Both the position numbers and the translations under genes were made by a program. A DNA stretch of 64,000 bases from Bacteroidota bacterium (GTDB taxonomy: Bacteria; Bacteroidota; Bacteroidia; Bacteroidales; Paludibacteraceae), in NCBI GenBank assembly GCA_021779195.1, contig JAJYBB010000010.1, positions 45,199 to 109,198 of the forward strand, read 5' to 3'. Under the pieces are notes generated by a model that searched no databases, was not told the origin of the DNA, and was given only the letters and a program-made list of their open reading frames with translations. Of the stretch, positions 29,964 to 41,076 are shown one piece after another; the stretch's first letter is position 1, and each line of letters starts with the position of its first letter.

Positions 29964-32159
29964 TTATCGAATGAAAAGGAGTTCCCTATATTTGGGTAAA
30001 GTCCATAATTCATCGTCTACAATCAACTCCAACTTATCAGCATTATAACGAATAACATCAAAGTAGGGCAACACTTTATCATGATAAGCTTTTGCTTTTT
30101 CGAATTCATTATCAATTTTATTAATTTGGCGACGTGAGTCGACCATGTCGTCAACAGCATTTTTTATATTTTGAATTCGTTCGCCAATTTCAATAATCAA
30201 CGAACTATCCAACATACCAAGTTTTTCAGCCCGTTCAACAGGAAATGCAGCTTTTATTTTTGTAACATTATCTAACAGGAAACTTTGATAACGAGTGGCA
30301 ACTGGAATAATGTGGTTCATTGACAAATCGCCTAAAACACGGGCTTCAATTTGAACCCATTTGGTATAAGTTTCCCATTTTACTTCATTACGTGCATGCA
30401 ATTCTTTTTCGGTCAACACACCAGTTTCAGTAAACATTTTAACACTTTCGGGTGTCGTAAATGCTTTATAAATTTCCGGAACGCTTGTTTCGCAATCCAA
30501 ACCACGTTTGGCTGCTTCAATTTTCCATTCATCGCTATAACCGTTTCCATCAAAACGAATTGGTTTTGAAGCTTTGATATATGATTTTATAACATCAAAA
30601 ATGGCTTTTTCTTTTAACTCACCAGTAGCCATTTTAGCATCAACTTCAGCTTTAAATTCAAAAAGTTGAGCAGCAACTGCAGCATTCAACGTTGCCATTG
30701 CTGATGAACAGTTTGCCGAAGAACCTACTGCACGGAATTCAAAACGATTTCCTGTGAAAGCAAAAGGAGAAGTTCGGTTACGATCAGTGTTGTCTAACAA
30801 TACTTCTGGAATATGCGCAATGCCAAGGCTAAGTTGCTTTTTACCACTCATAACGATAGCTTCTTCGCTGGTACTGTTTTCAAGTTTATTTAAAACTTCA
30901 GTAATCTGAGTTCCCAAAAATGCTGAAATAATAGCAGGAGGTGCTTCGTTTGCACCCAATCTATGTGCATTTTGAGCCGTCATAATCGATGCTTTTAATA
31001 AAGCATTGTTTTTATAAACAGCCATCAAAACATTTACAAGAATAGTGATAAACTGGAGATTTTCTTCAGGAGTTTTACCTGGAGTTAACAATCCGACACC
31101 AGTATCTGTACCCAGCGACCAGTTATTATGTTTACCAGAACCGTTAATTCCTGCAAATGGTTTTTCATGAAGCAATAAACGGAATCCATGACGACGGGCA
31201 ACGCGTTTCATAATCGACATAACCAACAGGTTTTGATCTACTGCTAAGTTACATTCTCCAAAAATAGGTGCTAACTCAAACTGATTAGGTGCAACCTCGT
31301 TATGACGGGTTTTTAAAGGAATTCCAAATTTATATGCTTCGAATTCCAAGTCTTTCATATAAGAAGCAACGCGTGTTGGAACAGAACCAAAATAATGGTC
31401 TTCCATTTGTTGATTTTTTGCAGATTCGTGTCCTAATAAAGTACGACCAGTCAACATTAAATCCGGACGGGTTGCATATAAATTTTCGTCAACCAAAAAA
31501 TATTCCTGTTCCCAACCCAAGTACGAAAAAACACGCTTTACGTTCGGATCGAACATTTGACAAACTGCAGTAGCAGCTTTATTTACAGCATTTAAGGATT
31601 TCAAAAGGGGCGCTTTCATATCCAATGCTTCGCCGGTATATGAAATAAAAATGGTAGGAATACATAAAGTATCGTCGACAACAAAAGCGGGCGACGATGG
31701 ATCCCAAGCCGTATATCCACGAGCTTCAAAAGTACTGCGAATTCCACCACTTGGGAAAGAAGATGCATCAGGTTCTTGTTGAGCTAAAAGTTTTCCTGAA
31801 AATTCTTCAACGATTGATTCACCGGGTGCTCCAGCATAATCTATAAATGAATCATGTTTTTCAGCCGTACCGTCGGTTAAAGGTTGAAACCAGTGCGTGT
31901 AATGCGTTGCGCCTAATTCCATTGCCCACATCTTCATTCCGGTTGCTACATCATCAGCAATGGTTCTATCCAAGGTCATACCTTTTTCAATCGCATTTTC
32001 CAATGATTTCATTATGTCTTTCGACAAATATTTTGCCATTACCGATTTGGTAAATACAAATTTTCCATAATAATCAGTAGTAAATTTTGAGGGAGCTGAT
32101 ACTTCGACTGCTTTTTTCTTAAAAGCTTCTTCGACTGCTTTGAATCTTAATGATGACAT
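29964..32159 (-). CDS. glnN: Glutamine synthetase type III
   Basis: ATP-dependent ammonia fixation onto glutamate. The protein belongs to the large GSIII class, not GSI: 731 residues from the ATG at 32159 (MSSLRFKAVEEAF), the Bacteroides-like length. AMELGATHYTHWFQPLT near 80-97, EVAPNQFELAPIFGE, KPFAGINGSGKHNNWS and TGNRFEFRAVGSSANCSSAMA are GS catalytic or metal-binding stretches. The track ORF begins 37 codons earlier at a TTG that coincides with the promoter -33 element, so it is rejected. The gene has its own promoter and terminator. Its place between gltB and the glnK-amt cassettes makes it the hub of the nitrogen block. Confidence 0.97.
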   Translation of the reverse strand: MSSLRFKAVEEAFKKKAVEVSAPSKFTTDYYGKFVFTKSVMAKYLSKDIMKSLENAIEKGMTLDRTIADDVATGMKMWAMELGATHYTHWFQPLTDGTAEKHDSFIDYAGAPGESIVEEFSGKLLAQQEPDASSFPSGGIRSTFEARGYTAWDPSSPAFVVDDTLCIPTIFISYTGEALDMKAPLLKSLNAVNKAATAVCQMFDPNVKRVFSYLGWEQEYFLVDENLYATRPDLMLTGRTLLGHESAKNQQMEDHYFGSVPTRVASYMKDLEFEAYKFGIPLKTRHNEVAPNQFELAPIFGECNLAVDQNLLVMSIMKRVARRHGFRLLLHEKPFAGINGSGKHNNWSLGTDTGVGLLTPGKTPEENLQFITILVNVLMAVYKNNALLKASIMTAQNAHRLGANEAPPAIISAFLGTQITEVLNKLENSTSEEAIVMSGKKQLSLGIAHIPEVLLDNTDRNRTSPFAFTGNRFEFRAVGSSANCSSAMATLNAAVAAQLFEFKAEVDAKMATGELKEKAIFDVIKSYIKASKPIRFDGNGYSDEWKIEAAKRGLDCETSVPEIYKAFTTPESVKMFTETGVLTEKELHARNEVKWETYTKWVQIEARVLGDLSMNHIIPVATRYQSFLLDNVTKIKAAFPVERAEKLGMLDSSLIIEIGERIQNIKNAVDDMVDSRRQINKIDNEFEKAKAYHDKVLPYFDVIRYNADKLELIVDDELWTLPKYRELLFIR

Positions 32160-32238
32160 AATTCTTGAATTATTTAATGGTTTATTTACTAATTTTTTTT
32201 TTGAATTGGTTTTCCTTACTTTATGTTCGAATGAGTAC

Positions 32239-32270
32239 GCAAAAATAATAAAAATGAAAGTTATACACAA
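32239..32270 (-). promoter_or_regulatory. Predicted glnN promoter
   Basis: On the - strand, TTG (32270-32268), 20 bases, then TATTTTTGC (32247-32239). The leader to the glnN ATG would be about 75 bases. Confidence 0.65.
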
Positions 32271-34043: not shown

Positions 34044-34397
34044 TTAAATATTTTCGGTATTATATAAAGCACCCGGACCTGATTCACGGGTACGAATACG
34101 ATAGGTTTCTTCAATGTCATAAACAAAGATTTTCCCATCACCTTGTTCTCCTGTCCATGCAGAATTTAAAATAGCATTCACTGTTTTTTCTAAATTAACA
34201 TCTCTCACAACTACAGATAACATTCTGCGTTGAATATATCCGGATTTAAATACTTGACCTCTAATTACTTGCTCTTCTGTAGATTTACCTAATCCGGTAA
34301 TATCCCAATACGAAAACCAATCAATGTCGGCTTCGTACAAAGCCTGTTTCACATCTTCGAATTTCGATTTGCGGATTACTGCTTCAATTTTTTTCAT
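34044..34397 (-). CDS. glnK: PII nitrogen-regulatory protein, first paralogue
   Basis: Small trimeric signalling protein (117 residues) that senses ATP/ADP and 2-oxoglutarate and gates Amt. It begins MKKIEAVIRKSKFEDVKQAL as PII proteins do. The C-terminal signature GDGKIFVYDIEETYRIRTRESG is present. In the T-loop the segment EEQVIRGQVF puts Ile at the position of the uridylylated Tyr51 (normally ELYRG), so it cannot be modified there. It differs from the second paralogue at about ten positions. A canonical promoter lies about 250 bases upstream. Confidence 0.96.
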   Translation of the reverse strand: MKKIEAVIRKSKFEDVKQALYEADIDWFSYWDITGLGKSTEEQVIRGQVFKSGYIQRRMLSVVVRDVNLEKTVNAILNSAWTGEQGDGKIFVYDIEETYRIRTRESGPGALYNTENI

Positions 34398-36575: not shown

Positions 36576-36929
36576 TCAAATAATTTCAGAGTTATACAAT
36601 GCTCCGGGACCCGATTCGCGGGTACGGATGCGATAGGTATCTTCAATATCATAAATAAAGATTTTACCATCGCCCTGTTCGCCTGTCCAAGCCGAATCTA
36701 AAATCGCATTGAGGGTTTTATCCAAATTAACATCACGTACAACAATCGAAATCATTCGACGTTGAATGTAGCCAGATTTAAACACCTGACCTCTAACTAC
36801 CTGCTCTTCGGTAGATTTACCAAGTCCGGTAATATCCCAATACGAAAACCAATCAATATCGGCTTCGTATAAAGCCTGTTTTACATCTTCGAATTTCGAT
36901 TTGCGGATTACTGCTTCAATTTTCTTCAT
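36576..36929 (-). CDS. glnK: PII nitrogen-regulatory protein, second paralogue
   Basis: 117-residue PII protein. It is identical to the first paralogue over the first 44 residues and differs at about ten positions overall. The T-loop reads EEQVVRGQVF, with Val at the Tyr51 position, so it also lacks the uridylylation site. The ATP-site segment GDGKIFIYDIEDTYRIRTRESG is complete. It is cotranscribed with the second amt from a canonical promoter about 120 bases upstream. An exact 13-bp inverted repeat lies just beyond that promoter. Synonymous changes between the two cassettes are common, so the duplication is not very recent. Confidence 0.96.
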   Translation of the reverse strand: MKKIEAVIRKSKFEDVKQALYEADIDWFSYWDITGLGKSTEEQVVRGQVFKSGYIQRRMISIVVRDVNLDKTLNAILDSAWTGEQGDGKIFIYDIEDTYRIRTRESGPGALYNSEII

Positions 36930-37563: not shown

Positions 37564-37911
37564 CTATTCTTTCATGTACAATGACTCGTCTCCGCTTTCT
37601 TTTGTACGAATACGATAAGACTCTTCAATGGGTGAAACAAAGATTTTTCCATCACCGATTTCTCCGGTATATGCTTTCTCCAAAAGACAATCTACTGTTT
37701 TCTGCAAATTAATGTCGCGAACCACAATAGATAAAGTCAATCGTGATATAAAATCAGTATCAGATGAACCTCGAAATACGTTTTTTCTTTTTCTTTCATT
37801 TCCTACTCCAAAAGTTTCGGTGTAAGTAAAAAAGTCAATATCAATGGCATGTAGCGCTGCTTTAACTTCCTCAAATTTTGAGCGTCTAATAATTGCTTCT
37901 ATTTTTTTCAT
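37564..37911 (-). CDS. PII nitrogen-regulatory protein, divergent third paralogue
   Basis: 115-residue PII protein from the ATG at 37911 (MKKIEAIIRRSKFEEVKAAL). The longer track start adds 16 residues unlike PII. GDGKIFVSPIEESYRIRTKESG keeps the nucleotide-binding signature. The T-loop GNERKRKNVFRGSSDTDF is clearly different from the other two copies and has Phe at the Tyr51 position. It lies downstream of amt3 across a 158-base gap with an 11-bp hairpin and a possible TAATTTTG promoter, the reverse of the glnK-amt order of the other cassettes. It is probably the partner of the third Amt. Confidence 0.94.
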   Translation of the reverse strand: MKKIEAIIRRSKFEEVKAALHAIDIDFFTYTETFGVGNERKRKNVFRGSSDTDFISRLTLSIVVRDINLQKTVDCLLEKAYTGEIGDGKIFVSPIEESYRIRTKESGDESLYMKE

Positions 37912-38021
37912 AACAATTAATGAATTTGGTAAATTTATAATTTTTTTTTGTTGCTCCAATGAATTTCAAAAATAATTCATTTCAATGAAAGTACGTTCAC
38001 TTATTTCAAAATTAATTGGGA

Positions 38022-38052
38022 TAGAATAGAAGTTTTAAAGGCTTCTATTCTA
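38022..38052. repeat. 11-bp perfect hairpin between amt3 and glnK3
   Basis: TAGAATAGAAG, loop TTTTAAAGG, CTTCTATTCTA, in the intercistronic gap. No T-run follows on the - strand, so it looks more like an mRNA-processing or attenuation element than a terminator. A - strand TAATTTTG (38014-38007) lies just downstream. Confidence 0.6.
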
Positions 38053-38069
38053 ATCTGATACTTAAATCG

Positions 38070-39620
38070 TTATTCAGTGTAAGCTTCAGCACCGTGTTCC
38101 CACATATCAAGGCCACCCGGACCTGTTTCTCCTTCGGGTTCAACGCGTAATTTGTAAGGATAAGGCAATTTACTGACCCCAATCATTACGATAAATGAAA
38201 CTATCAAAGTGGCTGCAGTAATCGTAAAACTACCTATTGCCTGGGCTTTAAGAACATCCCATCCTCCTCCGTAGAAAAGACCTTTTACCACACTTGCAGC
38301 TGAGTTGTCAGGACCTAATGGACCGGTAACTCCAAATTGTCCGCTTGCAAATAGTCCGAGCGATAATGTTCCCCAAATTCCTGCAAAACCATGTACAGAT
38401 ACAGCTCCAACGGGATCATCAATACGTAGATATTCCATCAAATAAACACCTCCAAATACCACAAGTCCGGCAACAAGTCCAATCATTATCGATCCAAAAG
38501 GGGTTACCCAATAACATGGAGCAGTGATTGCAACTAAACCTGCCAACATCCCGTTTAAAGCAAAACCTGTATCAAATTTACCTTTAAAAGGACCAATCCA
38601 AAGAGCAGCCAACATGGCAGCCAATGAACCAGTACAGGCTGCAATTGTAGTATTGGCTGCGATACGACCGATTCCTTCGTAATCCATACCTGAAAGCGTA
38701 CTTCCCGGGTTAAAACCGTACCAGCCGAACCAGAGTAAGAAAGCTCCGATCGTTGCCAATGGTAAGCTGTGAGCTGCGGGCAAACCACCACGTTTTTTAT
38801 CATCACGCAAAAAGATACGACCGATTCGCGGACCCAACACAATTGCTCCAGCTAAAGAAACCATTCCTCCAATGGTGTGAACCACAGAAGAGCCTGCAAA
38901 ATCACGAAATCCTTGTCCTAAGGAAGGTAAAAAATGTCCGGGAGTCCCCATCAATGCCAAGAAACCATCAGGTCCCCAAGCCCAGTGACCAATAATCGGA
39001 TAGATTAACGCAGTAACAAAAACACTGTAAATAATGTCACCACGGAAACTTGTACGTCCGATCATTGCACCTGAAGTAATAGTCGATGCAGTATCAGCAA
39101 AAGCAAATTGGAAAATCCAATGTGCTAAAATAGCCACTCCTGTTGCCCCATAAGTTGCCGGAACATTTTGTAAAAAGAAATATTGCATTCCAATAAATCC
39201 ATTACCAGCACCAAACATAAACGCATAGCCGATCGCCCAAAATGAAATACCACAAATGGCTGTATCAAGAACACATTCAACCAGAATATTTACGGTTTCT
39301 CGTTTTCTAGCAAAACCAGCCTCTAACATTACAAAACCAGCTTGCATACCAAACACTAAAAATGCAGCTACAAGCGTCCAAATTGTATTGATAGAATTAA
39401 TTACAGCCGTTTCATGTGCTGTATATGTGTCTGCTGCATGAGCCGGCGTTCCGGAAATCAAGCTGGGCAGAAGTACCATAGCGGCAATAACCGCGGCCAA
39501 ACCTAACATTTTTCCAACAAATACGGTTGCAAAAAGTTTCCAATCTTTTGGTTTTGACATGTTCTCTAATATGGTAGAGAAACGTCGTCCTTTCATGGGA
39601 AGTTCTACTGTCTTACTCAT
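38070..39620 (-). CDS. amt: Ammonium transporter, third and divergent type
   Basis: 516-residue Amt/Rh-family channel of a different subgroup from the two paralogues nearby. It has a long N-terminal region (about 40 residues before the first hydrophobic segment VFVGKMLGLAAVIAAMVLLPSLI, then PAHAAD). The core motifs are FGMQAGFVMLEAGFARKRETVNIL, FAFADTASTITSGAMIGRTSFRGDIIYS and DPVGAVSVHGFAGIWGTLSLGLFASG, with the pore His in SVHGFAG. These resemble cyanobacterial and proteobacterial-type Amt proteins more than the other two copies, so separate ancestry or transfer is likely. It lies 69 bases downstream of the beta-barrel gene and upstream of glnK3. Confidence 0.95.
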   Translation of the reverse strand: MSKTVELPMKGRRFSTILENMSKPKDWKLFATVFVGKMLGLAAVIAAMVLLPSLISGTPAHAADTYTAHETAVINSINTIWTLVAAFLVFGMQAGFVMLEAGFARKRETVNILVECVLDTAICGISFWAIGYAFMFGAGNGFIGMQYFFLQNVPATYGATGVAILAHWIFQFAFADTASTITSGAMIGRTSFRGDIIYSVFVTALIYPIIGHWAWGPDGFLALMGTPGHFLPSLGQGFRDFAGSSVVHTIGGMVSLAGAIVLGPRIGRIFLRDDKKRGGLPAAHSLPLATIGAFLLWFGWYGFNPGSTLSGMDYEGIGRIAANTTIAACTGSLAAMLAALWIGPFKGKFDTGFALNGMLAGLVAITAPCYWVTPFGSIMIGLVAGLVVFGGVYLMEYLRIDDPVGAVSVHGFAGIWGTLSLGLFASGQFGVTGPLGPDNSAASVVKGLFYGGGWDVLKAQAIGSFTITAATLIVSFIVMIGVSKLPYPYKLRVEPEGETGPGGLDMWEHGAEAYTE

Positions 39621-39689
39621 AATGTAAATTTTTAAAATTATTGTATATTCATTTTTTACCTTTAAAAACTAATCTTTATTGCCAACTTT

Positions 39690-40481
39690 TTAGAAGTTTA
39701 TATCTAATTGAGTCGTAAATGAATTTGCATTTACGTTATTCGAATTGTAAAATGCTTTTTTGTTATTATAGATATCATAACCGAAGATTACTGATACATT
39801 TTTAGAGAAAGCCCACGAAAAACCTAAATTTAAAGCTCCCAGATAGTTTTTTCCTCCCTGATAATCCACAGCCAACCATAATTTATCTGAAATTTCGGTC
39901 ATTGCTCTGTCCCAAGAAAGTAACACCCCTGTATTTGCAGTAGCTCCAGTTTCATCCACAAGCAATGCTTTATTTCCAGAATAATAACCAACCGATATAC
40001 GTCCAATTATTGGAATTGTTTTTGCAATAAGTGCATACATGATATTATAATTGGTCAAATTTGATTTCGTACCAAAATTATATGCTCCAATAGCTATGGC
40101 AGGTGCACCTTTAAAAAGTGAATCTTCAGGAAGCGCAATTTTACCATTAAAATAAATTGGATGTAAATCATAATTTTTAGCATTTGATAAATTGTTATCA
40201 CCCATGTTTAAATAATCAATACCAATCTCTGCTTGAACTTTGCTAAAGGGCGATATTCCAGTTGTTAATCCCATGTCGTACATCCCTGAACCAAATACTC
40301 CATTTGCATCGGCTTGTGTTCGGATGTAATTGTCAATTCCTAAATGAACTGTTTTAAAACCTTGGATGTCTGTTGAAGGAATCCAAATTTGAGTTGAACC
40401 TGTTGCCATCGCAACATTTACTATTGAGAATACTGCAATCACACAGATTGCTAAAACTTTCATTTTTTTCATACCTTTCAT
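39690..40481 (-). CDS. Predicted outer-membrane beta-barrel protein linked to amt3
   Basis: 263-residue secreted protein. A signal peptide (MKKMKVLAICVIAVFSIVNVAMA, about 1-26) is followed by alternating hydrophobic/polar strands, and the chain ends with the aromatic FTTQLDINF, the usual C-terminus of an outer-membrane barrel. The mature N-terminus reads TGSTQIWIPSTDIQGFKTVHLG. I do not recognise a named family. A second ATG three codons in (40472) is an equally good start. It is first in a predicted operon with amt3 and glnK3, which suggests a porin-like route for ammonium or a related solute. That function is inference from position only. Confidence 0.7.
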   Translation of the reverse strand: MKGMKKMKVLAICVIAVFSIVNVAMATGSTQIWIPSTDIQGFKTVHLGIDNYIRTQADANGVFGSGMYDMGLTTGISPFSKVQAEIGIDYLNMGDNNLSNAKNYDLHPIYFNGKIALPEDSLFKGAPAIAIGAYNFGTKSNLTNYNIMYALIAKTIPIIGRISVGYYSGNKALLVDETGATANTGVLLSWDRAMTEISDKLWLAVDYQGGKNYLGALNLGFSWAFSKNVSVIFGYDIYNNKKAFYNSNNVNANSFTTQLDINF

Positions 40482-41076
40482 TTTTTTAATTATTGACTAA
40501 TAAAGAATTAATTTCGGATTTAAAATTGATAAAATCAGATAGTATATTTGACGTTTTATCAGTATTTAGCTTCATATTTCGTCATTATGTTTTATTTACG
40601 ATGCAAAGATAACCACTTTGATAGCAATATAAGATAAAAGCTACCACAAAGTAATAAATAAAATTTATGACATTACAATATGATAGTATATTTTAATATT
40701 TAGTTTCGATATGAAACTGTTTTATATGTATTAATGCCGAAATGATATTGGATACGTAAATCAAATTACTAATTTCCAAATAAGCAGTTGGTATTTTAGA
40801 CAATTAATATCATTTATTTTTCATTTGGCAATTAAAAAAATCCAAATTTTGGGTTTATCTTTGACTTTTGGAAAGGGTATTAATGATTTCTCCCTAAAAT
40901 TTACAGGGTTCATCTTTGTATTAGAGTTGAAAAATGCAATATTTCCTCTTCTTCATATTATCTGAAATTGCGCTACTTCATATTTTTACAATTTAAAACC
41001 AATAGGTAGGAATTGCTGCGCTACTGTATTTACATCAGAAGGTTAAAACGCATTCCTGAAAAAAAATCACAAAATA
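40482..41076. other. Intergenic region before the tRNA cluster
   Basis: About 600 bases with no credible ORF. It holds the OMP-amt3 promoter element near 40603, a TATCTTTG on + at 40856-40863 with no gene behind it, and two GCGCTACT copies (40970, 41018). I see no structured RNA I can name. Confidence 0.55.
40603..40611 (-). promoter_or_regulatory. Predicted promoter -7 element of the OMP-amt3-glnK3 operon
   Basis: The - strand reads TATCTTTGC, an exact TAnnTTTG match, about 120 bases before the barrel-gene ATG. No -33 TTG at ideal spacing. Confidence 0.5.

Follow-up and report, generated by a model that had tools for sequence, protein, structure and literature searches.

An undescribed outer-membrane barrel family beside Amt and Kdp importers, proposed as an entrance for ammonium and potassium ions

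Why does a gene for an outer-membrane barrel stand directly in front of a gene for an inner-membrane ammonium transporter? The question is raised by three genes on the minus strand of the window, by which we mean the whole stretch of 64,000 nucleotides that was analysed. An earlier note on this DNA had described a signal-peptide barrel 69 bp before a divergent Amt of 516 residues, with a divergent PII following, and all three open reading frames were confirmed. The note had considered the barrel a possible partner in ammonium or methylammonium uptake and the unit a possible separate acquisition. The first of these readings has to be widened and the second given up.

The barrel-amt3-PII3 unit

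The features of the unit are:

40481-39690, minus strand: barrel, ORF of 263 aa from the ATG at 40481; named the WIPSTD barrel after its motif W33-I-P-S-T-D38
39620-38070, minus strand: amt3, 516 aa; assigned by PF00909, alignment with amt1 and amt2, and PDB search
37911-37564, minus strand: glnK3 (PII3), 115 aa; assigned by PF00543, orthologues of 115 aa, and alignment
37319-37288, minus strand: intrinsic terminator downstream of glnK3, 14-bp stem with T tail; -20.1 kcal/mol, z -5.4
40410..40472, minus strand: signal-peptide coding part of the barrel gene; by hhalign the sole 18 columns that align with Gcw_chp-type barrels
40482..40663, minus strand: region upstream of the barrel, kept between species with unrelated mature barrels; blastn against locus L102

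The gap between amt3 and PII3 measures 158 bp. No minus-strand terminator was found inside barrel-amt3-PII3, and the hairpin 245 bp past PII3 is the sole strong one near the unit on this strand. The barrel gene has a second ATG at 40472, the start position of its homologues; the encoded protein has a signal helix at its N-terminus and F as its final residue. Amt3 is a member of the Amt/Mep/Rh family (PF00909, E 3.7e-106) and, aligned with Amt1 and Amt2, keeps the pore Asp (D240) and the twin His (H248, H410). PII3 is a PII protein (PF00543, E 3.4e-23), and its start is better placed at ATG 37911, giving 115 aa as in the orthologues, than at TTG 37959. With these signatures and the PII partner the unit resembles the AmtB-GlnK cassette, but it differs in the barrel in front and in the order of Amt before PII; in the two adjoining cassettes PII precedes Amt. 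Amt3 has 31-34% identity to its neighbours Amt1 and Amt2, and its closest PDB relatives are 6eu6 and 8qj3, with E. coli AmtB entries scoring far lower. The earlier description of the unit is confirmed.

A barrel family with Amt and Kdp neighbours across several phyla

The window protein, earlier called barrel-like, belongs by its signal peptide and 12 predicted strands to the outer-membrane beta-barrels. The AlphaFold2 model has a mean pLDDT of 88.7 and an N-terminal helix at 5-18. Foldseek returned porins (OmpF, OmpC) and the FapF barrel at E ~1e-6 with modest TM-scores of 0.34-0.51; porins were the best fold matches, and the phospholipase OmpLA was also among them. Relatives were collected from the same genus first and then from other classes of the phylum. 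Finally 84,980 species genomes were scanned, which gave 220 relatives; the best 80 of these were used (identity 49-85%). By NCBI phylum, these best 80 of 220 comprise Bacteroidota (29), Thermodesulfobacteriota (26, mostly Geobacterales), Elusimicrobiota (9), Nitrospirota (9), Myxococcota (4), Bdellovibrionota (1) and two unplaced genomes. Searches of Pfam, NCBIfam and PDB gave no family match for the window barrel or its 81 relatives (82 aligned members); the family is undescribed and has no Pfam or NCBIfam entry.

Six of the best 80 were left out as a contig end adjoins the barrel, and the remaining 74 informative loci derive mainly from Bacteroidota, Geobacterales, Nitrospirota and Elusimicrobiota. 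At 63 of the 74, the barrel stands beside Amt, PII or Kdp: 55 loci have Amt (including L042, a PII-Amt locus with a barrel cut at its end), five Kdp only, two both and one PII only, and 11 barrels are solitary. Co-occurrence with Amt had been proposed beforehand as the check that might refute a tie to this transporter, and the tie held in several phyla, with 58 of the 74 informative loci. The share of Amt and Kdp neighbours on the strand of the barrel was 64/66, a count that also covers the window itself and a small number of additional loci, and the median gap between barrel and neighbour was 72 bp (59 gaps listed). The linked genes do not represent a single fixed block, for their order is free to vary; barrel-Amt-PII, barrel-PII-Amt, PII-Amt-barrel and barrel-kdpABCDE were all observed.

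Two control barrel families, scanned with the same reference set, showed almost no such neighbourhood, with 0/30 loci for OMP_b-brl_2 and 1/30 for Porin_O_P, together 1/60 (Fisher p 2e-25 for the window family versus the controls); flanks were 1.5 kb for the controls versus a limit of 2.5 kb for the window family, and nearly all gaps were far below both. The sole control positive, a Porin_O_P locus, encodes a BBP2 protein that is matched by both HMMs. BBP2 had itself been run as a negative control; these two families were added after it had turned out to have Amt and Kdp as neighbours.

A tree of the 82 barrels needs seven changes to account for its seven Kdp-linked rows (five Kdp only, two both). 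One supported group of this tree unites the window barrel, the closest of its Amt-linked relatives and two barrels linked to Kdp. Eight of the 11 solitary members fall in one small clade, mostly Geomonas/Citrifermentans. The linkage of the family to Amt and Kdp is thus shown to be specific, to extend over several phyla and to include repeated switching of the partner. The link to Amt in the earlier reading stood, its restriction to ammonium or methylammonium did not: this is too narrow because the family also adjoins kdpABC at seven loci. A plasmid search with the window barrel gave no match. A Desulfuromonadales locus (L076:3545-5211) has both barrel families side by side: after PII-Amt comes first a window-type and next a Gcw_chp-type barrel.

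Exchange of barrels upstream of amt3 and kdpA

Of 48 genomes from the genus of the window, ten carry amt3 at an identity of at least 76%. Besides the window's own genome, nine have amt3-PII3 at 76-94%, and several of these also share the neighbouring genes. The gene before amt3 is not constant. A window-type barrel is present in G000, G005 and G017, and a different barrel of 224-261 aa occupies exactly this slot in G829, G015, G007, G821, G035, G019 and G023. This alternative barrel is a Gcw_chp/TorF protein: the HMM built from the slot-mates and their relatives recovers all 30 loci of the Pfam Gcw_chp model, with up to 189 bits. By hhalign, only the 18 signal-peptide columns of the two barrel types align, and no homology was found beyond them. 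On the DNA level, G829 and the window agree to 84% in amt3-PII3 and to about 73% in the promoter and signal-peptide region, and similarity is not detectable between this region and amt3; blastn of the window versus L102 gave 72.5% over 244 bp (40425-40663). Promoter and signal peptide are kept and the mature barrels lack similarity, therefore the mature barrel was swapped behind both. The exchangeable part is the barrel; amt3-PII3 is resident in the genus. On this ground a recent acquisition of the whole unit is rejected, and the suggestion that it was acquired separately is not supported. The genome of the window has a second barrel, of the Gcw_chp type, on contig C28 (L182:7689-8393), downstream of an aspS-like ORF and not near Amt, and a sister genome (L183) has the same placement. 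The same locus of the window's own genome includes a 1441-aa ORF with a Cas9-like start (L182:11384-15709).

The same exchange was observed upstream of kdpA in the window's genus, where a window-type barrel precedes kdpA in G017 and G015 and a Gcw_chp-type barrel in G819, G824 and G821. Consequently, G017 has the window type and G821 the Gcw_chp type at both amt3 and kdpA, and G015 is mixed, a Gcw_chp-type barrel standing before amt3 and a window-type one before kdpA. Binning errors cannot produce these adjacencies, because each lies within one contig. The Gcw_chp-type copies beside Amt and Kdp are close to each other, with 77.7% between G821 Amt and G824 Kdp and 79.1% between G019 Amt and G819 Kdp. 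Ten other kdpA loci of the genus lack a barrel immediately in front, and G019 has its kdp operon and its barrel-amt3-PII3 unit in divergent orientation. A barrel directly upstream of kdpA was absent in 11 of the 16 Kdp operons of the genus with a readable kdpA, hence Kdp does not depend on the barrel.

Gcw_chp-type barrels were found beside Amt beyond the genus as well: in the whole phylum, an Amt or PII gene is at most 1.5 kb away at 26/30 loci. A record of Parabacteroides distasonis has a Gcw_chp-like barrel between kdpC and kdpD. About 12 other Bacteroidota kdp operons encode a protein of ~360-460 aa at this place, and the ten that were tested are all BBP2 porins (putative beta-barrel porin-2, OmpL-like). 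BBP2 adjoins Amt or Kdp at 15/30 loci, a set that includes some loci already met in the kdpA survey. Some Gcw_chp and BBP2 members are located away from both importers. A plasmid search with the Gcw_chp type gave five matches, including one within a kdp operon. Proteins annotated as TorF family putative porin probably also occur in the vicinity of amt and kdp in certain proteobacteria. In one Gcw_chp-type subgroup (L184-L188), the barrel gene has a different partner: next to it come a lipoprotein-like gene and one for a membrane protein of ~1000 aa, and not Amt or Kdp.

The window barrel was compared with both families as a candidate member and assigned to neither. With Gcw_chp/TorF it shares the amt3 and kdpA slots, a similar size, 12 predicted strands, an acidic predicted lumen and, within the genus, a near-identical signal peptide; however, the models PF09694 and TIGR02001 were unmatched for all 82 members and the profiles align at the signal peptide only. 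BBP2 resembles it in its position beside kdpC/kdpD or Amt in Bacteroidota, but has about 360 aa and did not match the window family by sequence, and PF07642 was not among the Pfam matches of the 82 members. Three barrel families without detected relationship have the same two partner systems, Amt and Kdp. The earlier statement that no outer-membrane channel tied to Amt is described in this phylum is correct for the papers found, yet Gcw_chp/TorF and BBP2 barrels stand widely beside Amt in Bacteroidota.

A proposed entrance for ammonium and potassium ions

Amt is a channel-like transporter, passive or electrogenic, whereas Kdp is a complex of the P-type ATPase kind, and the two are unrelated. 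They have in common a high affinity and substrates of almost equal radius, NH4+ and K+, and for this reason the barrel most likely acts on the passage of ions across the outer membrane. We propose, with a probability of about 0.72, that the window barrel is a dedicated outer-membrane pore through which NH4+ or K+ would reach a high-affinity importer in the inner membrane. The barrel would be made together with the importer, so that the outer membrane would not become limiting for uptake under ion scarcity. In the window it would serve Amt3 with PII3 as regulator; in sister species the same barrel would serve the potassium pump Kdp. The 11 solitary members, the Kdp operons that have no barrel directly upstream, and the Gcw_chp and BBP2 members found away from both importers speak against this proposal. 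The steps that we infer are the conductance for ions, the preference for cations, the co-transcription of the three genes and a limitation of uptake by the outer membrane. A cation preference is suggested by the predicted lumen, with lumen-facing residues assigned by strand parity, not coordinates, and uncertain at strands 128-137 and 147-156. Acids predicted to face the lumen are D50, E85, D89, D191, D206, D236 and D260, conserved at 98-100%, and D69 at 71%; predicted bases are K114, K154 and R161 at 100% (K and R pooled) and R54 at 84%. Seven near-invariant acids would thus face three invariant bases; the mean net charge of the predicted lumen is -3.7 in the window family and also about -4 in the Gcw_chp family.

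Small ions are generally taken to cross the outer membrane via general porins. In the strongest competing explanation, the barrel may be a general small-solute porin that is induced in very dilute water, with Amt and Kdp as neighbours through a shared induction by ion scarcity and with no special fit to NH4+ or K+. The hosts are largely organisms of fens, permafrost, lakes and groundwater according to the record titles, solitary copies exist, and three families without detected relationship would do the job. This explanation presumes hosts without abundant general porins, and it sits poorly with an adjacency that is specific to just two importer types and almost absent from two common Bacteroidota barrel families; we consider it rather unlikely. 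Less probable still is a role as envelope partner of Amt or Kdp, for instance as scaffold, sensor or an enzyme such as an acyltransferase or phospholipase, instead of a substrate pore. The invariant residues W33, D38, E119, R192 and E196, outside the predicted lumen, could form a binding or catalytic site, and FapF and OmpLA are among the fold matches. However, the best fold matches are porins, the replacement by two other barrel families points to a generic pore job, and Amt and Kdp have no common fold, which makes one scaffold for both unlikely. A neighbourhood by chance or hitch-hiking without shared function could be argued from the 11 solitary copies among 74, but it has hardly any probability left: the Fisher test versus the control barrels and the seven tree changes needed for seven Kdp linkages speak against it, and in our view the linkage counts refute it.

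A dedicated outer-membrane pore for NH4+ and K+ would extend a known kind of channel. KdgM, LamB, Tsx and OprP are likewise outer-membrane pores encoded or regulated with one importer, and KdgM also has 12 strands, but their substrates are sugars, nucleosides or phosphate. We know of no substrate-dedicated outer-membrane channel for NH4+ or K+, and a search of the literature, covering open-licence papers, found no outer-membrane channel tied to Amt or Kdp. The neighbourhoods, which extend over at least six phyla, suggest that a dedicated entrance in the outer membrane for these two ions of similar size is present in many bacteria. A wider reading is offered tentatively, as it may well be wrong: several phyla would have recruited at least three unrelated-looking barrel families as NH4+/K+-selective pores, each usable with Amt or Kdp because the two ions are nearly the same size, and the outer membrane would be a regulated and selective step of uptake. 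Three barrel families, either undescribed or labelled as unknown or putative porin, hereby gain a proposed function. An undescribed family linked to both importers, whose slot is taken in some genomes by a second barrel family, represents a natural experiment, in which a limitation of high-affinity NH4+ and K+ uptake by the outer membrane becomes directly testable.

Some minor observations concern the PII proteins and the genes around the Amt-PII cassettes. Tyr51 in the T-loop is the uridylylation site of E. coli PII, and R47 enters Amt. The PII proteins of the window (37564-37911, 36576-36929 and 34044-34397) apparently lack Tyr51 and keep R47; in PII3, the stretch FRGSSD seems by eye to have no Tyr at the position of Tyr51 in E. 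coli GlnB. G821 has a PII gene directly after kdpC (L191:11940-12344) in its barrel-kdpA-kdpB-kdpC operon; a link of PII to Kdp would be unusual. Among the Amt-PII cassettes of sister genomes, but not in the window, a gene for a CitMHS/NhaD-like transporter was found (L006:6057-7337, with a match to PF03600, and L102:11906-13195). Immediately downstream of the amt1 cassette of the window, an ORF of 768 aa (29964-32270) resembles glutamine synthetase type III.
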